Shown: positions 22,271-54,678 of the stretch, in pieces
Numbering within the stretch: the stretch's first letter is position 1
Layout: each line of letters starts with the position of its first letter
NCBI RefSeq assembly: GCF_008806775.1
Contig: NZ_WAEM01000002.1
Location: forward strand, 496,001 to 560,000
Source of the DNA: Flavobacterium luteum
Lineage (GTDB): Bacteria; Bacteroidota; Bacteroidia; Flavobacteriales; Flavobacteriaceae
Reading direction: 5' to 3'
Length of the DNA: 64,000 bases
Notes under the pieces: model-generated
Databases searched by the model: none
The model's input: the letters and a program-made list of their open reading frames with translations, nothing else
What the model was told of the DNA's origin: nothing
Translations under genes and position numbers: made by a program

Positions 22271-22279
22271 GGAATTGCA

Positions 22280-22369
22280 TTAGGGATGGCAGTGGAGCTC
22301 TTTTTTGAGGCGATTTTTTTCGCCTCAAAAAAAGCGGGAACGTACAGCCCGACCGAAGGGAATGCCCAA
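22280..22369 (+). repeat. Hairpin-containing dispersed intergenic element
   Basis: TTAGGGATGGCAGTGGAGC, then a strong hairpin (TTTTTTGAGGCG 22301-22312 / CGCCTCAAAAAA 22321-22332), then GCGGGAACGTACAGCCCGAC and GGGAATGCCC. The AGGGATGGCAGTGG ... AGCCCGACC layout is one I recall recurring between genes of flavobacteria. The hairpin could also end transcription in either direction. Confidence 0.6.
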
Positions 22370-38555: not shown

Positions 38556-38629
38556 TCCTTCTTAGCTCAGTTGGTTAGAGCATCTGACTGTTAATCAGAG
38601 GGTCCTTGGTTCGAGCCCAAGAGAGGGAG
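38556..38629 (+). tRNA. tRNA-Asn (anticodon GTT)
   Basis: 74 bases fold as a complete cloverleaf. The acceptor stem TCCTTCT/AGAGGGA pairs over 7 bp (one G-U), the D arm contains AGCTCAGTTGGTTAGAGC, the anticodon stem TCTGA/TCAGA encloses loop CTGTTAA with anticodon GTT, the variable loop is GGGTC and the T arm is CTTGG TTCGAGC CCAAG. The discriminator base is G and CCA is not encoded. It is the only intact tRNA in the window; decayed copies lie at about 48.7, 49.1 and 54.6 kb. Confidence 0.97.
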
Positions 38630-38640
38630 CTACTAAAGAA

Positions 38641-38672
38641 AAGCCTTTACAGAAATGTAAGGGCTTTTTTGT
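38641..38672 (+). terminator. Rho-independent terminator after tRNA-Asn
   Basis: AAGCCTTTACA, loop GAAA, TGTAAGGGCTT then TTTTT. The 11-bp stem (one mismatch or wobble) with a U-run starts 11 bases past the tRNA. The following stretch to 38904 is AT-rich and shows nothing else I can support. Confidence 0.85.
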
Positions 38673-38904
38673 TTTTTTGGTCGAATAATTATTTTTCTTA
38701 TTTTAGTAGAATGGAAGTAATACTCCATCTAGAATGTAGAATTTAGCATTATTATTGACTGCATATATTAATCAAAACCACAATCAACACCTGTTTTTAT
38801 TCGATTTTTTAATACTAACAAAAATAATTTCGAAAAAATTTAACGCTTGATTAAACCTTTTTAAAAGATAAAAGTCATAAGGAGATATTTTAAAAATAAT
38901 TTCT

Positions 38905-40575
38905 ATGCACAATTTGTTTTTTAAAGGTTCAATTACATCCTTTTACAAATCAGGACTTATACTATTTTTTATTACTAATTGTATAAGCATAACCGCTCAA
39001 GAAAAGTTCATTATTTTAGGAAGACCTACCGATACTTCTATAACAGCAAGTATATTATTTGAAGTTGCAACGGAATATTATATCGAGTATGGAACTGTTT
39101 CTGGGGTTTATTCATTGGTTACAAACAGCTTTACAAATACCCCAAAAACTCCCGACGAAATTGACCTTATCAATTTAGCACCAAACACAAAATATTTTTA
39201 CAGATTAGTTTATAAAAACGGTGGTTCTGCAAATTATAATACGACTCCAGAATATAATTTTCAAACTCAGCGTGCTCCTGGAAGTTCTTTTACATTTACC
39301 ATTGAATCAGACGAACATCTTTATGATAAGAAAGGAATTGTATCGATGTACCAAGTTACTTTGGCCAATCAAGAAGCAGACAAACCTGATTTTATGTTGT
39401 CTTTAGGGGATATTTTTGGAGATGACCACACTCCAACCACCACCACAAGTGCCGATATGGATGCATTACACAAAGATTACAGGCAATATTTAGGTCAAAT
39501 TTGTCATTCCATTCCGTTTTATGTTTGCCTTGGTAATCACGAAGGAGAAAACGATTATTATCTTAATCAAAATCCTCCATTTAACATAGGGGTTTGGGGA
39601 ACGCAATGGCGAAAATTTTATTATCCAAATCCGTTCCCAAATGCCTTTTATACCGGAAATACAACGGTAGAATCTTACGGAATTAATACTCCTGAAAATT
39701 ATTTTTCTTGGACTTGGGGCGATGCTCTTTTTGTGGTTTTAGATGTTTATAGAACCGAAATTGCTCCGGGAGCAACACCAGCAGATCCCGCAAAACCAAC
39801 AAACTGGGATTGGACATTGGGACAAACACAATACAATTGGATGCGTAACGTATTAGAAAACAGTAGTGCCAAACATAAATTTGTCTTTGCACACCATACT
39901 CGGGGTCAAGGTAGAGGAGGAATTGCTACTGCTACTCAATTTGAATGGGGAGGAATAGACGGAAATCAATACAAATTTGATCAATACCGACCAGGTTGGG
40001 GAAAACCAATTCATCAGGTTTTTGTAGATACTGGTGTAGATGTTTTCTTTCAAGGACACGATCATTTGTTTGCTAAAGAAGAACTTAATGGCGTCGTTTA
40101 TCAAGAAGTACCCATGCCAAGCGATATAAGTTACAATATTGGTTATACTGCAAATGCAGGAGCTTATCCAAACGGAAATGCAATGAATGGAACGGGTCAT
40201 ATTAGAGTCAATGTAACTCCAAGTTGTGTAAAAGTAGATTATGTAAAAGCTTATATGCCTGCAGATGCCACTATTGCGCATCCAAATGGTGAAGTAGCTT
40301 TTAGTTATACTATTGGAACTTGTAATTTAGGAGTTAATAGTTCAAAGCAAGATGAAATCATTAAAACATATCCAAACCCAGCAAATGAAAATTTACATAT
40401 TGAATTTGCGGATACCACAACAAATAGAAGAGGTGTTTTGATTAATACTCTAGGCAAAACTGTTTTAGAATTTGACTCAAATAACATCAACACTGTTAAT
40501 ATACCTGATGGGATTTACTTTTTGAAATTAGATTCTATTAAAAACGCTACTCAAAAAATCATTATTAAGCACTAA
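38905..40575 (+). CDS. Secreted metallophosphoesterase with T9SS domain (copy 1)
   Basis: 556 residues. A hydrophobic signal sequence (SGLILFFITNCISITAQ) precedes a purple-acid-phosphatase-like N-terminal beta domain (about 35-130). The catalytic calcineurin-like domain has SDEHLY, SLGDIFGDD (about 167), LGNHEGEND (about 210), AHHTRGQG and FQGHDHLFAKE (about 383), giving the Asp/His/Asn dinuclear metal ligands. The C-terminus is a T9SS domain (YPNPANENLHIEFADTTT). It probably releases phosphate from organic esters at the cell surface. First gene of a seven-gene run; the second starts 10 bp later and encodes a diverged paralogue. Confidence 0.85.
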   Translation: MHNLFFKGSITSFYKSGLILFFITNCISITAQEKFIILGRPTDTSITASILFEVATEYYIEYGTVSGVYSLVTNSFTNTPKTPDEIDLINLAPNTKYFYRLVYKNGGSANYNTTPEYNFQTQRAPGSSFTFTIESDEHLYDKKGIVSMYQVTLANQEADKPDFMLSLGDIFGDDHTPTTTTSADMDALHKDYRQYLGQICHSIPFYVCLGNHEGENDYYLNQNPPFNIGVWGTQWRKFYYPNPFPNAFYTGNTTVESYGINTPENYFSWTWGDALFVVLDVYRTEIAPGATPADPAKPTNWDWTLGQTQYNWMRNVLENSSAKHKFVFAHHTRGQGRGGIATATQFEWGGIDGNQYKFDQYRPGWGKPIHQVFVDTGVDVFFQGHDHLFAKEELNGVVYQEVPMPSDISYNIGYTANAGAYPNGNAMNGTGHIRVNVTPSCVKVDYVKAYMPADATIAHPNGEVAFSYTIGTCNLGVNSSKQDEIIKTYPNPANENLHIEFADTTTNRRGVLINTLGKTVLEFDSNNINTVNIPDGIYFLKLDSIKNATQKIIIKH

Positions 40576-40585
40576 TTCCAGTAAG

Positions 40586-42301
40586 ATGAAAAAAAATCTA
40601 TTCTTAATTTTTATATTGATTTCAGGTTTATTTGAAATTAATGCACAAAATTGTACACAAGCAGAAATTTTAGGTCGTCCAACCAATAATAGCATCACCG
40701 TTCAAGCATTTTTTGATGCTCCGGTAGAAGTTTGCATACAATATGGCGTAATTTCTGGAAATTATCCAAACCAAACCGCTTGGCAAGTCTTTGCAGCCAA
40801 TGAACCTGCAGAAGTCATCGTTACAAATCTGCAAGCAGATACCAAATATTATTATAGAATGTGTTACCGCCAGCCTAGCGCCGCAAGTTTTATAACAAGA
40901 GCAGAGCATACTTTTCATACGCAACGAGCTGTAGGAAGCAGTTTTTCATTTGTGGTGCAAGCTGATCCGCATATGGACGAACAGAGTTCAATAGCGGTTT
41001 ATGAACGATGTTTACAAAATCAGCTAGAAGACAATCCTGATTTTATGATTGATTTGGGCGATTTTTTAATGACGGATAAATTAAAAAACCTAACAACCAA
41101 TAAAATTCCAAAAGATACTATTCCATATCGTTGCAAATTGTTGCGGTCTAAATATGAGATTTCCTCTCATTCCGTTCCGTTGTTTATTGCCTTAGGAAAT
41201 CACGAAGGAGAATCCGGTTGGAATTTGAATGGAACTGCCGAAAACATTGCCGTTTGGGATTCAAATGAACGAAAAAAATATTTTATGAATCCAGCTCCAG
41301 ATAGTTTTTATACCGGTGATTTGACTAACCATAATTTTATCGGTCAACGCGAAAATTACTATGCTTGGCAATGGGGTGATGCCTTATTTATTGTCATTGA
41401 CCCTTATTGGTACACTTCTCTCAAACCTAACGCTACCACAGGATGGCGATGGACTTTGGGTTTAACCCAGTACAATTGGCTTAAAACAACATTGGAAAAC
41501 AGCACAGCCAAATTTAAATTTGTTTTTTCCCATCAAATAATTGGAGGTGATCCTGACGGTCGCGGTGGCGTAGAATTTGCCGATTTATACGAATGGGGCG
41601 GTAAAAACCTAGACGGAACAGATGGTTTTTCAGCCAATAGACCCGGATGGTACACTCCCATCAATGACCTTTTGACAGAAAATAAAGTGACAATCTTCTT
41701 CCACGGTCACGATCATTTTTTTGGAAAACAGGAAAAAGACTGTTTGATTTACCAAGAAACACCTCAGCCAAGTCATCCCAACTTTACAAGCGCAAATTAT
41801 GCAGCAACTTATGGGTATTTGGAAGGAACAATATTACCCAATTCTGGACATATTCGGGTAACAGTTGGGCCTTCTGGAGTTCAAACAGACTATGTTCGAA
41901 CGTATCTGCCCGCAACCGAAACTGCGACACGACATAATAAAGATGTTTCCTCCAGTTATTTTATTGGAACTAACAATTGTTATAATTTAGGCACCAATTT
42001 TCCTGTAATTTGGAATAGTAATTATGCTGATGAAATTGTGTATCCAAATCCTTTTTCAAAAGAAACTACAATTGAATTTTTAATGGAAAAACCTGAAAAA
42101 TTGAATCTATCAATATACAATCAGCTGGGGCAAAATGTAAGGCAGCTCATTAATGGAAATGTTGTCAATGAAGGCAAACAACAAATTATTTGGGACGGAA
42201 AAGATGACTCAGGAAACGATCTTGCCGATGGTGTTTATATTTATAAAATTAAAACAGAATCGAAAGAATTAAAATCTGGAAAAATGATTCTTAAAAGATA
42301 A
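40586..42301 (+). CDS. Secreted metallophosphoesterase with FlgD-like T9SS domain (copy 2)
   Basis: 571 residues with a signal peptide (NLFLIFILISGLFEINAQ). The N-terminal beta domain (GRPTNNSITVQAFFDAPVEV) parallels that of the preceding gene. Metal ligands: QADPHMDE, DLGDFLMTD (about 157), ALGNHEGESG (about 204), SHQIIGGDP and FHGHDHFFGKQ (about 373). The end is a FlgD-type T9SS domain (WDGKDDSGNDLADGVYIYKI ... KMILKR). The two phosphoesterases are clearly paralogous but differ in sorting domain and active-site loops, suggesting different substrates. It lies 10 bp after copy 1 and 27 bp before the YHYH gene. Confidence 0.85.
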   Translation: MKKNLFLIFILISGLFEINAQNCTQAEILGRPTNNSITVQAFFDAPVEVCIQYGVISGNYPNQTAWQVFAANEPAEVIVTNLQADTKYYYRMCYRQPSAASFITRAEHTFHTQRAVGSSFSFVVQADPHMDEQSSIAVYERCLQNQLEDNPDFMIDLGDFLMTDKLKNLTTNKIPKDTIPYRCKLLRSKYEISSHSVPLFIALGNHEGESGWNLNGTAENIAVWDSNERKKYFMNPAPDSFYTGDLTNHNFIGQRENYYAWQWGDALFIVIDPYWYTSLKPNATTGWRWTLGLTQYNWLKTTLENSTAKFKFVFSHQIIGGDPDGRGGVEFADLYEWGGKNLDGTDGFSANRPGWYTPINDLLTENKVTIFFHGHDHFFGKQEKDCLIYQETPQPSHPNFTSANYAATYGYLEGTILPNSGHIRVTVGPSGVQTDYVRTYLPATETATRHNKDVSSSYFIGTNNCYNLGTNFPVIWNSNYADEIVYPNPFSKETTIEFLMEKPEKLNLSIYNQLGQNVRQLINGNVVNEGKQQIIWDGKDDSGNDLADGVYIYKIKTESKELKSGKMILKR

Positions 42302-42328
42302 TTTCTATAACCATAAACCTTTGACAAA

Positions 42329-43981
42329 ATGAAAAAATTACTGCTTATTTTACTTTGTGTTTTTAGCAATTATACCTTTTCGCACACGATCAATTATGAC
42401 AAAGTAGTGTTGCGCCATTGGACATTAGTAAAAGAACATCAGTTTGTGGATGGAAGTTTTTATATGCTCAAAAACGGAAATGTTTACATCGAAGAGGCTA
42501 ATGACAAAATTGTTCACTTTCCGATTTCCTCTTTTTCTAAAGAAGACCAAACATTCGCTACAAAAAAAGACCAATGGGTTAAAAATTTAAATAATGATTT
42601 TGTAGCAAAAAACACAACATCTCAAGCAGAAATTCAATCAACTTGGAACAAAAAGTTGTGGATCATTGCCCTTTTTATAGTTTTACTTGGTGTTTCCGTT
42701 TTCGCTCATACCGACAAAGAGAAAATAAAATATTTGATTCCAATAATTTCGGTTGGTGGCCTTATGGTTTTGTACGGTTTTGCAAAAAAAACAACAACCA
42801 CCGACCCCGCTTTTGTAAACTCGGCATTTGCACCTTTCAAATCGACCGTTAGCACATCTTACGATGCAACTTATTTCTATGTAAATTCTAAAGGCGTGCC
42901 CAATCACACCATGATGGTAGGAATAGCAAGTGGTGGTTGGCAACAACAAGTGCCTATCCCGCAATGCTATCTAAGTTCTTTTATCAATAAATCCGGCAAT
43001 CAAAACGCTTGGAGTATTCCACTAAACCCCGTAATAGCAGCAACTCCTGTACCAGTAAATAAAGACCATTTTGGTATTGGCGCTATTGCTATTGCTGCAA
43101 ATGGAGTGGCAATTTTTAACCTTTATACTACATCTGGACAAGATTCTTATGCTACAGGACAATTGGATAATTTTGGAGGCCATTGTGGCAAAGGTGATGA
43201 TTATCATTATCATACTGCTCCTTTGCATCTGATTTCATCTGGACAAACAACTGCAAACTTACCTATTGCTTTTGGTTTAGACGGATTTGCTGTTTATGGA
43301 AGTTTGGAACCCGACGGCTCAGCAATGGCAAACCTTGATGCTAATCACGGTCATAACGGGACCAATGGTGTTTATCACTATCACGGAACTCAAAACTCAA
43401 ATGGGAGCAATCCTCTTATGATTGTCAATATGGTAGGTGAAGTTACAGAAGATGCTAATAAACAACTTATACCTCAACCGCAAGCAAGTCCATTGAGAGG
43501 TGGAAATTTAACGCCCTTGGCAGGAGCTTTAATCACCTCTTGTGTGCCGAACACAAACAATAATGGTTATAATTTAGCTTATAGCTTAAACGGTGTGCCG
43601 GGTTATGCCACTAATTTTAGCTGGAACGGAACCACCTATACATTTGACTATGTTACGCCAACTGGAACAACAACCACAAATTACAAAGGCTTTTCGCAAT
43701 GTACAGTTCCAAATTTGACTGTATCTGATTTTACAATTAGCGATAAAAACATTTCCATTTATCCAAATCCAGCTGATGATATATTAAATGTTAAGTTGAA
43801 CTTCGGTATTTCAGAAGGCGATGTTCAATCCATTTCGATTTACGGAATAAAAGGCGAATTGATATCGAAAATAGTGCATTACAAACCAACAATTGATATA
43901 AAAAAGCTTCCTTCAGGCGTGTATTTTGTTAAAATTCAGTTTCCAAATTATCTGATAACTAAAAAAGTTTTGGTTAATTAA
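42329..43981 (+). CDS. YHYH-domain protein with two membrane segments and a T9SS domain
   Basis: 550 residues. After a signal peptide (MKKLLLILLCVFSNYTFSHT) come about 80 polar residues, then two hydrophobic helices (about 108-127, LWIIALFIVLLGVSVFAHT; about 133-152, IKYLIPIISVGGLMVLYGFA). The YHYH domain follows, with GDDYHYHTAPL (about 290), GLDGFAVYG, and VYHYHGTQ (about 347); its paired His/Tyr residues are likely metal ligands. The end is a T9SS domain (SIYPNPADDILNVKLN). Membrane helices upstream of a T9SS sorting signal are unexpected in one chain. YHYH biochemical function is unknown. Third gene of the operon. Confidence 0.8.
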   Translation: MKKLLLILLCVFSNYTFSHTINYDKVVLRHWTLVKEHQFVDGSFYMLKNGNVYIEEANDKIVHFPISSFSKEDQTFATKKDQWVKNLNNDFVAKNTTSQAEIQSTWNKKLWIIALFIVLLGVSVFAHTDKEKIKYLIPIISVGGLMVLYGFAKKTTTTDPAFVNSAFAPFKSTVSTSYDATYFYVNSKGVPNHTMMVGIASGGWQQQVPIPQCYLSSFINKSGNQNAWSIPLNPVIAATPVPVNKDHFGIGAIAIAANGVAIFNLYTTSGQDSYATGQLDNFGGHCGKGDDYHYHTAPLHLISSGQTTANLPIAFGLDGFAVYGSLEPDGSAMANLDANHGHNGTNGVYHYHGTQNSNGSNPLMIVNMVGEVTEDANKQLIPQPQASPLRGGNLTPLAGALITSCVPNTNNNGYNLAYSLNGVPGYATNFSWNGTTYTFDYVTPTGTTTTNYKGFSQCTVPNLTVSDFTISDKNISIYPNPADDILNVKLNFGISEGDVQSISIYGIKGELISKIVHYKPTIDIKKLPSGVYFVKIQFPNYLITKKVLVN

Positions 43982-43993
43982 TAGAACATTTTT

Positions 43994-45214
43994 ATGATAA
44001 AACTTCTCTTCTTTTTGCTGGTTTTACCATTAGTATCGATAGCACAATATTCCGGTTCAGCTTCGGTTACGCGCGGTTTGGCAACTACAACAACTTCTAA
44101 TCTATACAGTTGTACTGGAGGAAGAATCGCTGCCGTTGGAACCATCACCGCCACTGATAATTCAGTTTGGACTGTTCCATCAGTTGTCAATTATACTAAT
44201 GCCTCATTTCCATTTGCTTCTAATTTATATAACGATTGTGATGGAGCAACTTATGCCAATTCTGTTGCAGCGATAGCGGCTTTGAATGGTTCTGATATTG
44301 TAACTATTGATGCTGGTGGCGAAGTGATTACAGCTTATGTTTTTGCAGACAATTATTTTGAAATGTATATTAATGGAATACCCGTTGGCAAAGACAACGT
44401 TCCTTTTACAACATTCAATTCCAGTATTGTCCGTTTTAGAGTTAATCGTCCTTTTACTATCGCAATGCTTCTTGTAGATTGGGAAGAACGTTTAGGTGTT
44501 GGTGGGGAAACCAACGGTGGTTTTAACTATCATTGTGGAGATGGTGGAATGGTGGCGGTTTTCAAAGACACCAGCAACAATATCATCGCTAAAACCGGAA
44601 GTGACTGGAAAGCACAAACTTTTTACACATCACCAATCAAAGATTTAACTTGTCCTTCTGAAAATGGAACTGCCCGACTTTCTTCTGCTTGTAGCACCAC
44701 AGATTCTAATGCTGGAACTACTTATTATGGATTGCATTGGGCGAGGCCATCGAATTGGACTAGTGCATCTTTTGATGATGCTTCTTGGCCAACGGCTTCA
44801 ACTTATACAAACGCCACAATTGGGGTGGATAATAAACCCGCTTATACTAATTTTACGAATATTTTTGACGATGTTGCCAATGATGCCCAATTTATTTGGA
44901 GTAAAAATGTAATATTGGACAATGAAGTAATTGTGAGGAAAACAGTTGGAAGTTTGTCCGTTTCGGACAATGATATTTTTAATAATAAGGTGTCTATTTA
45001 TCCAAATCCTGCCAAGACTGAATTTCATTTATCAATTGACAAATCGATTAATGGCATAAACAAAATTCAAATTTTTAATGTTTTGGGAGAAAAAGTATTT
45101 GAAACCAAAACGATATCGGAGACCATCAATTTTGGGCCTATTCCTTCAGGAACTTATTTTGTTAAAATATGTTCCAATCAAATTCAGATTACTAAAAAAT
45201 TAATAGTAGAATAA
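43994..45214 (+). CDS. Secreted protein of unknown function with T9SS domain
   Basis: 406 residues with signal peptide MIKLLFFLLVLPLVSIAQ. The mature region is beta-rich: repeated short aromatic strands, GEVITAYVFADNYFEMYING and a WARPSNWTSASFDDASWPTA pattern recall carbohydrate-binding, galactose-binding-like jelly rolls, but I cannot name the family. Four or more Cys (CTGG, CDGAT, CPSEN, CSTT) may form disulfides. The end is a T9SS domain (SIYPNPAKTEFHLSIDKSI). It lies 12 bp after the YHYH gene and 18 bp before the DUF1566 gene. Confidence 0.75.
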   Translation: MIKLLFFLLVLPLVSIAQYSGSASVTRGLATTTTSNLYSCTGGRIAAVGTITATDNSVWTVPSVVNYTNASFPFASNLYNDCDGATYANSVAAIAALNGSDIVTIDAGGEVITAYVFADNYFEMYINGIPVGKDNVPFTTFNSSIVRFRVNRPFTIAMLLVDWEERLGVGGETNGGFNYHCGDGGMVAVFKDTSNNIIAKTGSDWKAQTFYTSPIKDLTCPSENGTARLSSACSTTDSNAGTTYYGLHWARPSNWTSASFDDASWPTASTYTNATIGVDNKPAYTNFTNIFDDVANDAQFIWSKNVILDNEVIVRKTVGSLSVSDNDIFNNKVSIYPNPAKTEFHLSIDKSINGINKIQIFNVLGEKVFETKTISETINFGPIPSGTYFVKICSNQIQITKKLIVE

Positions 45215-45232
45215 TTTTAGAATCTTATTTTA

Positions 45233-46441
45233 ATGAAAAAAACACTTCTTTTCGGATTACTACTTTTCAATGTTGTTTTCGTTTTTGGACAAAGCATTTC
45301 AAAAACGATACAATTATTGCCCGATACAGGACAAACAATAAGTTATACCCCCACCTTTGGCGAGGACAATGACTATTTGATTAATACACCTTCCTACACG
45401 AATAATGGCGATGGAACAATTACAGATAATGTTTCGGGATTGATGTGGCAACAAGTGGATGGAGGAGAAATGACCATTGAAAATGCTAAAACCTATTGTG
45501 ATAATTTGGTTTTGGGAGGGCATTCAGATTGGAGGTTGCCAGTTTCTATTGAGGCATTTAGCATTCTGAACCATCAAAATAACAATCCTGCAATGAACAC
45601 CACCTATTTTCCTTCGAGCGGTGCGGAATATTGGTGGACCAGCGTTTTTGAATTGAATTCGACTACCAAAGTTTGGTGTACCAATGCGGGAGGCGGCATT
45701 GGAAATCATCCAAAAACAGAAACGATAAGTGCTGGAGGAACTAAAAAATTTCACGCTCGTGCTGTAAGAAATACAAATACACCACCAACACTTACCATCC
45801 ATTTTACCGATAATGGCGATGGAACTATCACGGATAATTTAACCCAATTGATTTGGCAAAAAGTTCCCAATACTTCGGCTTTAACTTGGGAAAACGCTTT
45901 GAAATACGCCGAAGGACTTTCGTTAGGGAATTCAACCGATTGGCGTTTGCCAAACATCAAGGAATTACAATCTTTAAATAATGAATTGGCAACAAATCCG
46001 TCTGTTTTTTCTCCCTACTTTGGAAATTTGGGAGTTTATTTTTATTGGTCTTCTACTTCACTCCCCAATCAAACCACAAAGGCTTGGTATTGGAGTACAC
46101 AATTTGGAATTACAACCTATGACACAAAAACAAATGCTAATTATGTAATTTGTGTTAGAGGAAATCCTACCTTGACAGTACAAAATGAAGCGGTGCATAA
46201 TTCTATCAAGGTCTATCCAAATCCGGCTTCAAATTATATTGTAATCTCCTTTGTAGAAAATCCTGAAAGTCCTGTATTCGAATTTTCAAATTCCTTAGGT
46301 CAAATTGTTTTAAGGAAAGAAATGAAAGTAACGTCTAATGAATATCGATTAAATACGGAAAAACTTTCGAATGGATTTTATGTATTAACAGTGATTAATG
46401 GAAAAAAAAGAGATTCATTTAAAATAGTAATTACTAAATAA
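45233..46441 (+). CDS. Secreted DUF1566 (Lcl-type) protein with T9SS domain
   Basis: 402 residues with signal peptide MKKTLLFGLLLFNVVFVFGQ. Two DUF1566/Lcl C-terminal-type domains occur in tandem: TDNVSGLMWQQV ... CDNLVLGGHSDWRLP (about 60-185) and TDNLTQLIWQKV ... EGLSLGNSTDWRLP (about 190-310). The second half of each carries the W-T/S-S-T pattern typical of C-type-lectin-like folds (WWTSVFE, YWSSTSL). The T9SS domain is VYPNPASNYIVISFVENPE. A surface binding role, perhaps to glycans or matrix, is plausible but unproven. It lies 18 bp after the preceding gene, with the sulfatase 2 bp behind. Confidence 0.85.
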   Translation: MKKTLLFGLLLFNVVFVFGQSISKTIQLLPDTGQTISYTPTFGEDNDYLINTPSYTNNGDGTITDNVSGLMWQQVDGGEMTIENAKTYCDNLVLGGHSDWRLPVSIEAFSILNHQNNNPAMNTTYFPSSGAEYWWTSVFELNSTTKVWCTNAGGGIGNHPKTETISAGGTKKFHARAVRNTNTPPTLTIHFTDNGDGTITDNLTQLIWQKVPNTSALTWENALKYAEGLSLGNSTDWRLPNIKELQSLNNELATNPSVFSPYFGNLGVYFYWSSTSLPNQTTKAWYWSTQFGITTYDTKTNANYVICVRGNPTLTVQNEAVHNSIKVYPNPASNYIVISFVENPESPVFEFSNSLGQIVLRKEMKVTSNEYRLNTEKLSNGFYVLTVINGKKRDSFKIVITK

Positions 46442-46443
46442 TT

Positions 46444-48030
46444 ATGGTGAAAAAAGCAGCAATCATAGTGTTATTATTGGCAACTTTTGCTAATTATGCG
46501 CAACGAAATGTAGTTTTAATAATTGCAGATGATTTAGGAAAAGATTATTGCGAAATGTATCCCGATCATTCGCCTAAAGTAGTTAAATTGACCAATATAG
46601 AACGGCTTAAAGATAGAGGTGTTGTTTTTAGTAATGCTTGGTCAAGTCCTTTGTGTTCGCCTACTCGCGCTGGAATACTTACCGGTAGATATAGTTTTAG
46701 AACTGGAGTAGGGGATGTTGTCGACGGAACGAATACAAAATTAAGTCTTGCCGCGACTATTATCCCGAAAGTTTTAAATCTTTATGCTCCAAATGGGATA
46801 TCTAAAGCCCTGATAGGGAAATGGCATCTGACTAGTTTTGGTCAAAGTGCATATAATGACCCAACTATAATGGGATTTGATCATTTTGAAGGAAGCCTTA
46901 CAGGTGGTTTAGGTCAAACTATTAGTGACTTCTTCACTTGGACAAAAATAACGAATGGCGTTAAGAGTATATGCACAAATTATGCAACAACCGAAAATGT
47001 AAATAATGCCATTTCATACATAAATAGTCAGCCTTCGACAAAACCATTTTATTTGCATTTGGCTTTTAATGCTCCCCACACGCCTTATCATTTACCTCCT
47101 TCTAATTTGATTGCTGCCACAACTTTATTAGGAACCCAAACTGATGTTGATGCTAATCCAGTACCATATTTTCAAGCGATGGTAGAGGCAATGGATACAG
47201 AAATAGGACGTTTTTTTGACTATTTAATTAGTTCTGGAAAATGGAATAATACCGATATTATTTTTATGGGTGATAACGGAGATGATTCTAAAGTAGCTCA
47301 GGTCACTCCATCAAAGGGAAGTATCTATCAAGGAGGCGTAAATATTCCTTTTATTATTTCGGGTCCAGATGTAGTAAATCCAAACAGAACCAGTGATGCC
47401 TTGGTGAATACTGTAGATTTATTTGCTACAATATTAGAATTATTTGGAGACACAAATTGGCAAAGCCAAATTCCTACTACGGTTGTAGATAGTAAAAGTT
47501 TATTACCGATACTTAAAAACACCGCCTCATCAATTCGATCAGTTGCATTTTCAGAGGTCTTTAAGGATCCGACAATTTCAGGCGATGGAAAAACAATAAG
47601 AAACAGTGATTACAAATTGTTAAAATTCGATAACGGTACCGAAAAATTTTTCAATCTAATAACGGATCCAACTGAAAAATCCAATTTGCTTTTAGGAACT
47701 TTAAATACGATTCAAACCTCCAATTATAATTCATTATGCAATCAAATGACAACATTGATTGGGGGTTCAAATTATTGCAATCCAATATTTTTGAATAATG
47801 AAAGTTTTGAGGCCAATCAAAACCAGGTTTATCCCAATCCATTTCAATCGACGGTTCATTTCAAATCCTATTCAGGTAACGAAAAGTACCAATTATTTTC
47901 AAGTTCAGGACAATTGATTTTTGATGGTGCAAGGATCGAAAAACAAGATTTCTCGGCTTTGGCAAAAGGCGTTTATTTCCTGCAAATAACCGATAAATCA
48001 ACAACTACAGTTAAGCTTCTAAAAGAATAA
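46444..48030 (+). CDS. Secreted sulfatase (formylglycine-dependent) with T9SS domain
   Basis: 528 residues with signal peptide MVKKAAIIVLLLATFANYAQ. The alkaline-phosphatase-superfamily sulfatase domain has LIIADDLGKDY (metal Asp pair), the modification motif CSPTRAGILTGR with Cys71 (converted to formylglycine), IGKWHLT and IFMGDNGDD. The CxPxR motif needs a formylglycine-generating or radical SAM maturase, which is not in this window. The C-terminal T9SS domain is VYPNPFQSTVHFKSYSGNE. It would cleave sulfate esters, for example of algal polysaccharides, outside the cell. It begins 2 bp after the DUF1566 gene and abuts the HupE/UreJ-like gene directly. Confidence 0.9.
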   Translation: MVKKAAIIVLLLATFANYAQRNVVLIIADDLGKDYCEMYPDHSPKVVKLTNIERLKDRGVVFSNAWSSPLCSPTRAGILTGRYSFRTGVGDVVDGTNTKLSLAATIIPKVLNLYAPNGISKALIGKWHLTSFGQSAYNDPTIMGFDHFEGSLTGGLGQTISDFFTWTKITNGVKSICTNYATTENVNNAISYINSQPSTKPFYLHLAFNAPHTPYHLPPSNLIAATTLLGTQTDVDANPVPYFQAMVEAMDTEIGRFFDYLISSGKWNNTDIIFMGDNGDDSKVAQVTPSKGSIYQGGVNIPFIISGPDVVNPNRTSDALVNTVDLFATILELFGDTNWQSQIPTTVVDSKSLLPILKNTASSIRSVAFSEVFKDPTISGDGKTIRNSDYKLLKFDNGTEKFFNLITDPTEKSNLLLGTLNTIQTSNYNSLCNQMTTLIGGSNYCNPIFLNNESFEANQNQVYPNPFQSTVHFKSYSGNEKYQLFSSSGQLIFDGARIEKQDFSALAKGVYFLQITDKSTTTVKLLKE

Positions 48031-48603
48031 ATGTCATATTTTGAAACTATAACTCTATATGTCCAGCTTGGGTTTACTCACGTAATTCCTTATGGTTATG
48101 ACCATATTTTATTTATTTTAAGCTTATTTTTTTTAAGCTCTCAATTAAAAACGGTGCTTATTCAATGTTCTGTTTTTACTTTGGCTCATAGTATATCTTT
48201 GGGTATAGCAACTTTAGGTTTTATTCTACCCGACGCTGCTGTTATTGAACCATTAATTGCTGCTTCTATACTATTTACGGCAATTGAAAATATTGTACAT
48301 AGCAAATTATATACTTGGAGAATTATCTTAATTTTTGGATTTGGATTAATTCACGGTCTAGGATTTGCCAATGCCTTGAATAAAATTGGCTTGCCTAAAA
48401 ATCAATTTTTCACTTCGTTGTTGTCTTTTAATTTGGGTGTCGAGTTAGGGCAAATAGCAGTTATTCTTGCTGCTTATTTCTTGGTCAGCAAATGGTTTAG
48501 TACTAAAGTTTGGTATAAAGAGCGGTTGGTTTACCCAATTTCAAGCATTATTGGATGTATTGCCCTCTATTGGACAATTGAAAGAATATTGTTTGTAAAT
48601 TAA
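48031..48603 (+). CDS. HupE/UreJ-like membrane protein
   Basis: 190 residues, about six membrane helices. The family pattern is FTHVIPYGYDHILFILSLFF at the start, TLAHSISLGIATLG in the next helix and GFGLIHGLGFANAL, with conserved His residues suited to metal binding. HupE/UreJ proteins are linked elsewhere to nickel or cobalt handling, but no hydrogenase or urease gene is present here. In Bacteroidota such proteins recur beside secreted enzymes (recollection). The start codon follows the sulfatase stop with no gap. It is the only integral membrane gene at the end of the run, possibly supplying or sensing a metal used by the metallophosphoesterases. Confidence 0.85.
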   Translation: MSYFETITLYVQLGFTHVIPYGYDHILFILSLFFLSSQLKTVLIQCSVFTLAHSISLGIATLGFILPDAAVIEPLIAASILFTAIENIVHSKLYTWRIILIFGFGLIHGLGFANALNKIGLPKNQFFTSLLSFNLGVELGQIAVILAAYFLVSKWFSTKVWYKERLVYPISSIIGCIALYWTIERILFVN

Positions 48604-48733
48604 ACTTTTCCTGATTAGTATAAATTGAATTACACCAAATAGGACTTCTTAAATTAAGTATTCAATCCTATCTATTTGATTTTAATATAATTGAATAGTC
48701 AATTATTGAGACAAAAATGCAACTTTCTTCAAT

Positions 48734-48743
48734 AGAGGGAGCT
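48734..48743 (+). other. Remnant of tRNA-Asn 3' end (copy B)
   Basis: AGAGGGAGC here matches the acceptor 3' strand of the intact tRNA-Asn (38622-38630), and ACTTTCTTC just upstream resembles its 5' edge, so an internal deletion of the tRNA is likely. A terminator follows at once, as it does after the intact tRNA. It is a short match; it counts mainly because of the matching surroundings. Confidence 0.45.
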
Positions 48744-48746
48744 TTT

Positions 48747-48776
48747 AAAAAGCCAGTCATTTGATTGGCTTTTTTG
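48747..48776 (+). terminator. Rho-independent terminator after the phosphoesterase/sulfatase operon
   Basis: AAAAAGCCAGTCA, loop TT, TGATTGGCTTTTTT: 9 or more paired bases with one G-T and a T-run. It lies 143 bp past the HupE/UreJ gene. The stretch 48604-48733 holds no other feature I can support. Confidence 0.75.
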
Positions 48777-48800
48777 TTTTCGAAAAACTTCTAAAATAGG

Positions 48801-49079
48801 CCTTGTATCTTTATTCTTCATTCTACTAAACTAGGCCGGTTTTATATTGGCTTTACTTCAGATTTTGATAAAAGATTTGATTTTCATTTAAACTCAGACG
48901 AAAAAAGAAAATTTACACATAATGCAAACGACTGGATTACTTTTCTAATAATCAAATGCCAATCAAAATCTCAAGCGTTAGCGATTGAAAAGCATATCAA
49001 AAAAATGAAAAGCAAAATTTATATTCAAAACCTTATCTTGTATCCTGAAATGATAGACAAGTTATTACAAAACACTTGA
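48801..49079 (+). pseudogene. GIY-YIG nuclease remnant
   Basis: A continuous frame from 48819 to TGA 49077-49079 reads STKLGRFYIGFTSDFDKRFD, then HLNSDEKRKFTHNANDW, CQSKSQALAIEKHIKKMKSK and ends YPEMIDKLLQNT. FYIGFT is the YIG half of the GIY-YIG motif and the IEKHIKKMKS helix is typical of the short stand-alone family. The GIY half (LYSS, from about 48801) is in another frame and there is no start codon, so the gene is broken. It lies immediately after a tRNA-Asn remnant, a setting in which these nucleases are common in flavobacteria. Confidence 0.8.
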
Positions 49080-49098
49080 ACTCATAATCAAAGCCCCA
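49002..49098. repeat. Direct repeat, copy 1 (GIY-YIG 3' end plus flank)
   Basis: From AAAATGAAAA to AAGCCCCA this 97-bp stretch recurs at 54454-54547 with few changes and one lost codon. It includes the last codons of the GIY-YIG relic and the flank ACTCATAATCAAAGCCCCA. The two copies bracket the 1648-residue gene. Confidence 0.85.
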
Positions 49099-54401: not shown

Positions 54402-54453
54402 AAAATCCCTTGCTCCTATTTCCTACCAATTAATTATTTCCTGCAGATGAAAT

Positions 54454-54528
54454 AAAATGAAAAATAAAATTTATAAAAACCTTATGGTATATCCAGAAAT
54501 GATAGACAAGTTATTACAAAACACTTGA
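54454..54528 (+). pseudogene. GIY-YIG nuclease 3' remnant, second copy
   Basis: Only the last 24 codons remain: KMKNKIYKNLMVYPEMIDKL ending LQNT and TGA 54526-54528. It matches the end of the relic at 48819-49079 but lacks one codon. No upstream part is present, so recombination or deletion between copies is likely. Confidence 0.75.
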
Positions 54529-54547
54529 ACTCATAATCAAAGCCCCA
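54454..54547. repeat. Direct repeat, copy 2
   Basis: 94 bp matching 49002-49098, ending AATCAAAGCCCCA. It is followed by a tRNA-Asn 3' remnant rather than the diverged flank of copy 1. Confidence 0.85.
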
Positions 54548-54557
54548 ATAGATATAG

Positions 54558-54584
54558 GGATTGGTTCGAGCCCAAGATAGGTAG
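54558..54584 (+). other. tRNA-Asn 3' remnant (copy C)
   Basis: GGATTGGTTCGAGCCCAAGA followed by TAGGTAG matches the T arm and acceptor 3' strand of tRNA-Asn (38602-38629) with a few changes. No D arm or anticodon arm is present, so no tRNA is made. The sequence after it (AAAGCCATTCATTTGACTGG then T-run) is a diverged copy of the terminator at 48747-48776. Confidence 0.75.
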
Positions 54585-54678
54585 CTAAAGCAGAAAGCCA
54601 TTCATTTGACTGGGTTTTTTGTTTTCCATAACGATGGATTTTTTATATCGCTATTTAAGGATAAGACATTCTAATAAT

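Follow-up and report, generated by a model that had tools for sequence, protein, structure and literature searches.

A recurrent YHYH and HupE/UreJ gene set behind tRNA-Asn in Flavobacterium luteum, a candidate system for transition-metal capture

Anglerases are proteins in which domains with an N-terminal histidine are fused to a HupE/UreJ-2 carrier, and copper dissociation constants of 62 and 74 nM are given for them in PMC12537917. According to the same source, the gene neighbours of Ang-2 include metallophosphatases, and HupE proteins are termed nickel permeases, after Rhizobium HupE. The YHYH domain (PF14240) has been described in jumbo phages as a predicted Zn-dependent hydrolase (PMC7824862), and MbnP/MbnH-like pairs accompany AhpC_TSA genes in copper operons (PMC3621798, PMC9426467); PMC3621798 states that, as of 2013, no data tied the close homologues of MbnP to copper. 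Islands in which the 3' end of a tRNA is repeated have likewise been described (PMC10872708). Here, we analyzed a stretch of 64,000 nucleotides of Flavobacterium luteum (assembly GCF_008806775.1, contig NZ_WAEM01000002.1, positions 496,001 to 560,000; hereafter the window), which contains an operon of seven genes encoding two metallophosphoesterases, a YHYH protein, a predicted beta-sandwich protein, an Lcl_C protein, a sulfatase and a HupE/UreJ membrane protein. We propose, with moderate confidence, that this operon is a system for the capture and handling of a transition metal, most likely copper, carried here as cargo inserted behind tRNA-Asn. To our knowledge, copper uptake in Bacteroidota is poorly known; the gene set offers proteins to test and a conserved residue to mutate, and it suggests a possible role for YHYH proteins and for HupE copies apart from urease and hydrogenase.

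An earlier note on this DNA had described seven co-directional genes with short gaps, and both coordinates and gaps were confirmed exactly by the open reading frame (ORF) list: all genes lie on the plus strand, separated in order by 10, 27, 12, 18, 2 and 0 bp, which makes a single transcript plausible. Feature coordinates, given as positions in the window, are collected in the table below. The Pfam Metallophos family was matched by genes 1 and 2 (37.8 and 38.0 bits, cut-off 21.5), YHYH by gene 3 (49.8 bits, cut-off 25, the best stretch covering positions 2-110 of 193), Lcl_C (which we take to be DUF1566) by gene 5, Sulfatase by gene 6 (159.3 bits, cut-off 25) and HupE_UreJ_2 by gene 7 (153.3 bits, cut-off 24.5), while for gene 4 Pfam gives secretion-tail domains only. 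Thus, the assignment of gene 7 to a HupE/UreJ-like family of metal carriers was upheld, as was that of gene 6 to the CxPxR sulfatases, with CSPTR at residue 71. The C-termini ascribed to the type IX secretion system (T9SS) were found in all six of genes 1-6, which pass the cut-offs of both Por_Secre_tail (27 bits) and TIGR04183, and the tail fold is present in the AlphaFold models of genes 3 and 4. Putative Sec signal peptides were read by eye.

Conserved co-occurrence beyond this strain had been set beforehand as a test of the grouping, and the genes indeed recur together in tens of loci. A scan with gene 3 yielded 102 encoded relatives (matches to short gene 3 peptides), from which 78 loci were kept, mostly from metagenome-assembled genomes (MAGs) and not independent of each other. 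A second set of 15 loci came from an even draw of genomes and a further search, with possible overlap in species with the first set. This gave 93 loci in total (labelled L), in 91 of which the YHYH gene was called by a simple gene caller (L056 and L106 were dropped). The closest group comprises 33 loci (L031-L063) with gene 3 proteins 52-82% identical; most are MAGs, and two are isolates, F. aciduliphilum DSM 25663 (L049) and Flavobacterium sp. CYK-55 (L061, where the operon has no HupE gene next to it). Their titles are mostly Flavobacteriaceae, Flavobacterium or Bacteroidetes, and a few (Nitrotoga, Rhizobium, Chitinophaga) are probably misnamed bins.

BLAST comparison of the neighbourhoods showed that the order g1-g2-g3-[g4]-g5-[g6]-g7, or parts of it, is kept throughout the closest group. 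Among assessable loci, those whose contig reaches far enough from YHYH, the most constant partner of gene 3 is the Lcl_C gene, which follows YHYH in 29 of 29. HupE lies downstream in 20/27, the sulfatase in 13/27 and gene 4 in 10/27; upstream of YHYH, metallophosphoesterase genes occur in 17/25, a CnrX/CpxP-like gene in 7/25 and a multicopper oxidase in 2/25. Outside this group, HupE directly follows YHYH in three loci titled Chitinophagaceae (L068-L070), with the metallophosphoesterase pair divergent alongside in L068 and L070, and relatives of gene 4 (26-28% identity) are found near YHYH in L100, L101, L106 and L108, whose titles are Roseiflexaceae or Planctomycetota names. Further arrangements, from the second set of loci, are sigma-CnrX-like-YHYH followed by two metallophosphoesterases and Lcl_C (L119), multicopper oxidase-redoxin-g4-YHYH-HupE-Lcl_C (L120) and multicopper oxidase-redoxin-g4-YHYH-Lcl_C (L121), and in L118, L126 and L130-L132 no such partners were found within five genes of YHYH. 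Proteins of the gene 3 type (E 1e-30) were detected in 9 of 395 genomes of the phylum in the even draw, the present genome counted, and this type is therefore patchily distributed. The gene set is real, conserved and modular; the open-access literature yielded nothing on its combination with DUF1566. For YHYH itself, a diatom protein is mentioned in PMC11992049, and apart from this and the jumbo-phage paper the titles retrieved appear to be chance hits.

The predicted mature form of gene 3 starts with histidine, a feature absent from the earlier note. In an alignment of 82 sequences, the column at this predicted N-terminus holds His in 77 and a gap in five: L060, whose gene is truncated, the lipoprotein-like homologues of L100 and L108, and the second paralogues in L064 and L066. 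When the row of L101, a spurious N-terminal extension, is set aside, His is present in 76 of 76 genuine rows, and the residues that follow it are variable. In the second set of loci, His stands directly behind the signal peptide in 11/15, the other four having no callable N-terminus, and an N-terminal HxGGH[YF] pattern was found in 33 of 43 homologues outside the closest group. Besides His, both Met and Cys are among the invariant residues of this subfamily (H175, M178, H267, C268, H275 and H277 in mature numbering, in which the N-terminal His is H1). As a separate observation, the closest group differs in length from many of the other relatives, which are shorter by about 80 aa and whose match ends near residue 451.

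Behind this histidine, an SHD1-like barrel is predicted. The PF03983 (SHD1) score of gene 3 itself (19.9 bits, E 6.7e-4) is below the cut-off of 23.7, and the homologue in L106 reaches 44 bits (E 1.9e-11); three of five tails tried matched and two did not. In the AlphaFold model of gene 3, built from 61 sequences with a mean predicted local distance difference test (pLDDT) score of 83.6, the barrel overlays on 2hbp, the SHD1 domain of SLA1, with a template modelling score of 0.70 on the target, a root-mean-square deviation (rmsd) of 1.4 and Z 7.5. When the gene 3 profile was compared with the Protein Data Bank (PDB), the matches were SLA1 (E 0.24), designed 'Cake' proteins in eight rows and one further entry. 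Fold searches gave no known fold for the YHYH domain, their match lists being filled by the T9SS tail so that the domain was barely probed.

Gene 7 encodes 190 aa with no additional domain, and it and the aligned homologues from the operons keep the DH, AHS, HGLGF/HGMGF and ELGQ-type motifs, with the exception of a shortened copy in L049; no PDB relative was found for it by sequence at E 1. HupE_UreJ_2 itself is widespread (109 of 120 genomes of the family), mostly as ORFs of about 200 aa. Of six HupE loci that were opened, three encode stand-alone proteins and three, picked for their longer ORFs, encode proteins with an N-terminal His of their own (L136, L137 and L138). The other HupE_UreJ_2 protein of the present genome (L133:5663-6247, G000:C33) keeps HGLGF and has lost DH and AHS.

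To characterize the surroundings of YHYH, neighbours were counted at the 91 loci within five genes (766 slots) and farther away (421 slots), with Fisher values that treat loci as independent and ignore relatedness. The commonest neighbour is the metallophosphoesterase (56 within vs 0 beyond, p 1e-11); also counted were Lcl_C (37 vs 0), HupE (25 vs 0, p 1.5e-5), gene 4 (22 vs 0), the sulfatase (16 vs 1, p 0.006), a CnrX/CpxP-like gene (11 vs 0, p 0.008), the multicopper oxidase (7 vs 0, p 0.046) and a redoxin (6 vs 1, p 0.23). The oxidase and the redoxin stand upstream of YHYH in some loci; CueO is the nearest solved structure to the oxidase in the PDB, and its last copper motif is recognizable by eye in L054 and L152 as HCH-x3-H-x4-M. 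In L057, whose operon is the most similar one, SCO1-FeoB stands on one side of the operon and genes of a DtxR-NRAMP cluster on the other. An HMA protein is encoded upstream and NRAMP/DtxR downstream in L034, and an HMA protein also in L046; an NRAMP cluster follows the operon in nine loci (one tested by Pfam) and a DtxR-type cluster in four (one tested). Two ArsR regulators and a TonB-receptor-like gene were found in L123, and genes of the resistance-nodulation-division (RND) type near YHYH homologues were noted by eye. Part of this metal-gene neighbourhood reflects shared chromosomal position within a clade. Separately, a PEBP gene (PF01161; one member tested) was counted 21 vs 0 and directly adjoins YHYH in 21 loci (for example, L064:8712-9266).

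The strongest single point for metals is found in the present genome, which has two YHYH genes and a single gene for Cu-oxidase_3, found in only 17 of 60 genomes of the family. The second YHYH gene lies two genes from Cu-oxidase_3, at the end of a run on one strand (L152:8409-15245, G000:C11) that comprises an extracytoplasmic function sigma factor, a small protein, a CpxP-like protein, MbnP (E 4.3e-45), a MauG-type cytochrome (E 5.1e-57), a multicopper oxidase, a redoxin and YHYH. One strand of L124 carries, in succession, the two YHYH types together with Lcl_C and a MauG-type protein.

The exported enzymes and gene 4 were also examined. The label 'diverged' that the earlier note gave to the two metallophosphoesterases holds for sequence distance, gene 1 having no PDB relative by sequence at E 0.01, but not for the active sites, as the DxH, GD, GNHE and GHDH motifs are retained in genes 1 and 2. 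Homologues longer than 400 aa also keep them (DxH 56/56 and GD 56/56, both loose patterns, GNHE 52/56, GHDH 56/56). Purple acid phosphatases carry the motif GDxxY. That class was rejected for genes 1 and 2, with Pur_ac_phosph_N scores of 23.7 and 19.3 against 30 bits and the Tyr missing (GDIFG and GDFLM). The core of gene 4 is predicted to be a galactose-binding-like sandwich from a model of low confidence (mean pLDDT 62); it resembles the domain with which a rhamnosidase binds sugar (3w5m; Z 10.4, rmsd 3.1, 123 aligned residues) and a lectin of fungal origin (6li7; Z 10.0, rmsd 2.9, 115 aligned), and the match of its tail to 8glk (Z 10.5, rmsd 2.0, 74 aligned) is that of the T9SS tail.

With regard to the locus itself, the boundaries proposed before, an intact tRNA-Asn on the left and a terminator with a tRNA-Asn relic on the right, were both recovered. 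The window holds nine sites of terminator-like hairpins vs 8.0 expected in shuffles, and because the count is near this expectation, the hairpins gain weight through their position. The rseP-tRNA-Asn order is preserved in all nine close relatives fetched, and the operon is absent behind tRNA-Asn in eight of the eight that are assessable, L116 ending about 100 bp past the tRNA. In the relative L109, with an RseP 97% identical, similarity to the window extends as far as the terminator of the tRNA and is lost beyond it, and a genome in which the operon does occur (contig G866:C1) has it elsewhere on the contig. The relic TCAATAGAGGGAGC matches the tRNA 3' end at 12 of 14 positions and forms the 3' end of a conserved site of about 78 bp. 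The GIY-YIG nuclease remnant behind it lies within a 448-bp repeat (48643-49089), with a second copy about 24 kb further on (95%).

The site also occurs elsewhere in the genus. When 150 genus genomes were searched for its 20-base core, 23 copies were found in 13 of them, and a reversed control pattern was found 0 times. Alignment of 20 of 21 sites (one duplicate was left out) revealed a conserved stretch of about 78 bases that closes with the tRNA 3' end, and behind every site stands a hairpin with a T run. A model built from this alignment and run on genomes including those sites matched at 70 places, spread over 32 of the 199 genomes scanned from the genus; the window site, itself part of the model, scored E 1.3e-18, and the present genome has four matches, two of them on other contigs (another site lies at G000:C22:568971-569046). 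Sites often stand in tandem, with spacings of 1.1-2.7 kb in L140-L143, an arrangement that looks like an integron-like cassette array. Upstream of the sites, tRNA-Asn or its 3' end was found in 5 of 13 fetched stretches (L143, L146, L148, L149 and L150) and also in L115, and the other eight show no tRNA-Asn within the stretch, several of them ending at contig ends. By eye, the same ORF start is seen directly behind tRNA-Asn in L109 and inside the array of L140, and another ORF is common to L115 and L149. As in additive tRNA islands, a repeated tRNA 3' end bounds variable cargo behind an intact tRNA. The locus is probably mobile, with the operon as cargo of a tRNA cassette, and the site offers an easy way to trace the exchange of cargo among genomes of the genus.

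We suppose that each cassette would consist of terminator, cargo and site, entering at the tRNA 3' end and pushing older cassettes downstream, so that the operon (about 38622-48742) would be the latest arrival. Tycheposons combine a tRNA with a tyrosine recombinase inside the element; here, Pfam gave no recombinase, tyrosine recombinase included, among the seven genes, and the arrays were not searched with a recombinase profile. The site matched no known RNA at Rfam gathering thresholds in four stretches scanned, and no paper on cassettes at tRNA-Asn was found in the open-access literature. In 27 other operon-bearing loci that were scanned, no strong site was detected (best E 0.099), and the operon is therefore not bound to the tRNA-cassette route.

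Some additional features were noted around tRNA-Asn. A second relic of its 3' end, GAGCCCAAGATAGGTAGC, lies at 54568-54585 of the window with two mismatches in 18, adjoined by repeat remnants (54443-54538); the LamG gene of 1648 aa may be a further insert. In L112, a direct repeat of 48 bp (2115-2162) copies the 3' half of tRNA-Asn at 98% and lies about 12 kb away from it, the kind of trace that an integrated element leaves.

Table. Features of the operon and its flanks in the window
Feature	Position	Strand	Evidence
tRNA-Asn(gtt), presumed insertion point	38556..38630	+	ARAGORN; Rfam tRNA
Terminator behind tRNA	38637..38670	+	hairpin scan; similar in L109, L110, L113
Gene 1: secreted metallophosphoesterase, T9SS tail	38905..40575	+	Pfam; motifs DEH136, LGD167, GNHE210, FVFAH326, GHDH384
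Gene 2: second metallophosphoesterase, T9SS tail	40586..42301	+	Pfam; motifs DPH127, LGD157, GNHE204, FVFSH312, GHDH374
Gene 3: signal peptide (by eye), N-terminal His, SHD1-like barrel, hydrophobic helices, YHYH domain, T9SS tail	42329..43981	+	
Gene 3, codon of predicted mature N-terminal His (residue 19)	42383..42385	+	alignment of homologues
Gene 3, SHD1-like barrel, residues 27-80	42407..42568	+	PF03983 subthreshold; 2hbp fold match
Gene 3, two hydrophobic helices, about residues 99-127 and 133-152	42623..42784	+	AlphaFold model; hydropathy 2.34, 1.71
Gene 3, YHYH domain core, residues 228-326	43010..43306	+	PF14240; invariant H, C, D positions
Gene 4: galactose-binding-like beta-sandwich (predicted), T9SS tail, optional module	43994..45214	+	AlphaFold core; remote homologues adjoining YHYH
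Gene 5: Lcl_C/DUF1566 protein, T9SS tail	45233..46441	+	PF07603 E 1.5e-48
Gene 6: S1-type sulfatase CSPTR, T9SS tail, optional module	46444..48030	+	PF00884, CSPTR71, PDB sulfatases
Gene 7: stand-alone HupE/UreJ_2 membrane protein, His/Asp/Glu motifs kept	48031..48603	+	PF13795 153.3 bits; alignment
Right end of presumed cassette: conserved site ending in tRNA-Asn 3'-end copy	48665..48742	+	alignment; model match
Terminator behind site, read as that of former tRNA 3' end	48747..48774	+	hairpin scan
GIY-YIG nuclease remnant	48837..49076	+	PF01541 E 1e-10

Elsewhere in the window, a Flavo-1 RNA (RF01705) was matched by Rfam at 22275-22358 on the plus strand (53.8 bits).

Taken as a metal-capture system, the operon might work as follows. 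The products of genes 1-6 would be exported and deployed on the cell surface through their type IX tails, where the gene 3 protein would bind a metal ion by its N-terminal His and the conserved His, Met and Cys of the YHYH domain. The ion would be handed from gene 3 to gene 7, which, as a carrier without a capture domain of its own, would move it through the inner membrane. Genes 1, 2 and 6 might release metal from phosphate or sulfate ligands, or be metal-dependent surface enzymes, and genes 4 and 5 might dock the assembly on glycans.

Other readings were weighed against this one. The earlier note had favoured a set that acts at the surface to release the phosphate and sulfate bound in organic matter, the metal cofactor being provided by gene 7, and two phosphoesterases with the expected motifs, a CSPTR sulfatase, secretion tails on all three and the frequency of metallophosphoesterases beside YHYH agree with it. 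However, the sulfatase (13/27) and the phosphoesterase pair (17/25) are optional in the closest group, in which YHYH with Lcl_C (29/29) occurs without them, and because of this optionality the release of phosphate and sulfate loses its standing as the main role. Metal genes, moreover, recur near the homologues; as no systematic search was made there for Pho or sulfate-transport genes, they make a positive case for metals with no exclusion of phosphate. We regard phosphate and sulfate release as quite unlikely to be what the operon is for. Tolerance of copper or another metal, in which exported proteins would bind, oxidise or sequester the excess outside and gene 7 would export or sense it, is also unlikely, although the CueO-like oxidase, the RND efflux genes (by eye) and the MbnP/MauG-type pair near YHYH homologues would suit it, as would the short HupE protein with N-terminal His in L138, which adjoins RND-type genes (by eye). 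Uptake is a better fit to the TonB-receptor-like gene in L123 and to FeoB and NRAMP by the L057 operon, and HupE proteins are termed permeases, for nickel, in PMC12537917. A third reading is that nickel is taken up for urease, HupE/UreJ having the part that it plays in systems of hydrogenase and urease; the family membership of gene 7 agrees with this, and a urease alpha gene is indeed present in this genome. That gene is located on another contig (C11), and the metal genes near the homologues are of copper, Mn and Fe type. Hydrogenase-linked nickel was rejected, as no NiFe hydrogenase match was found in the genome, and the nickel reading as a whole appears very improbable.

Several observations weigh against the capture of copper through gene 3 and gene 7. 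HupE is absent in 7 of the 27 assessable closest-group loci, and paralogues without N-terminal His exist (the second YHYH of the present genome and those in L064 and L066). Mature residues 1-6 of gene 3 have pLDDT below 50 and are too poorly modelled for a binding site to be made out. The hydrophobic stretches of gene 3 are inconstant: among the 82 sequences, 45 have two that exceed the hydropathy limit, 25 have one and 12 have none, and their combination with a T9SS tail is an odd pairing. The counts of multicopper oxidase and CnrX-like genes depend on few lineages, the CnrX/CpxP-like gene is below Pfam cut-offs, and the CpxP-like gene of the second YHYH run rests on BLAST similarity, with no such Pfam match. 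NRAMP, DtxR and FeoB point to Mn or Fe, not Cu, and nickel keeps its small probability because the genome has a urease gene. As for the cassette, the terminator behind the tRNA may be native because similar ones stand in L109, L110 and L113 with other cargo.

With these points considered, transition-metal capture is still the function that we favour, and its likeness to anglerases is worth setting out. In both, a His stands directly behind a signal peptide and a HupE/UreJ-2 carrier is involved, and metallophosphatase genes are close by, as for Ang-2 (PMC12537917). Since gene 7 has no capture domain of its own, the parts that are fused in anglerases would be separately encoded here, the His on gene 3 and the carrier on gene 7. 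The His-bearing domain of gene 3 is predicted to be an SHD1-type barrel followed by YHYH, whereas that of anglerases is an Ig-like beta-sandwich; the exported proteins here have type IX tails, and gene 3 is a putative metal binder. A wider proposal, which we put forward tentatively as having a minor chance of being right in full, is that gene 3 and its homologues are a new class of metalloproteins with an N-terminal His that act in trans with HupE/UreJ as a split anglerase, brought to the surface by type IX secretion, that exchangeable phosphoesterases, sulfatase and CueO-like oxidase strip copper from differing ligands, and that the whole passes from strain to strain as a cassette behind tRNA-Asn.

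Comparison with the other described systems shows the same mixture of shared and new parts. Gene 3 and the jumbo-phage YHYH proteins have the same Pfam domain with conserved His and Asp (PMC7824862), and it is possible that YHYH is a Zn-dependent hydrolase, as that source predicts; gene 3 differs in that its protein is cellular and secreted and carries an N-terminal His, an SHD1-like barrel and a T9SS tail. The copper operons with MbnP/MbnH and AhpC_TSA (PMC3621798, PMC9426467) resemble the second YHYH run, which has MbnP, a MauG-type cytochrome, a multicopper oxidase and an AhpC/TSA redoxin, whereas the operon of the window has none of these four genes. Finally, like the additive flexible genomic islands of PMC10872708, the locus carries an insertion behind a tRNA that is bounded by a copy of the tRNA 3' end, and it differs from them in that the tRNA is tRNA-Asn, the repeat is the end of a conserved site of about 78 bp, and a terminator stands behind each site.

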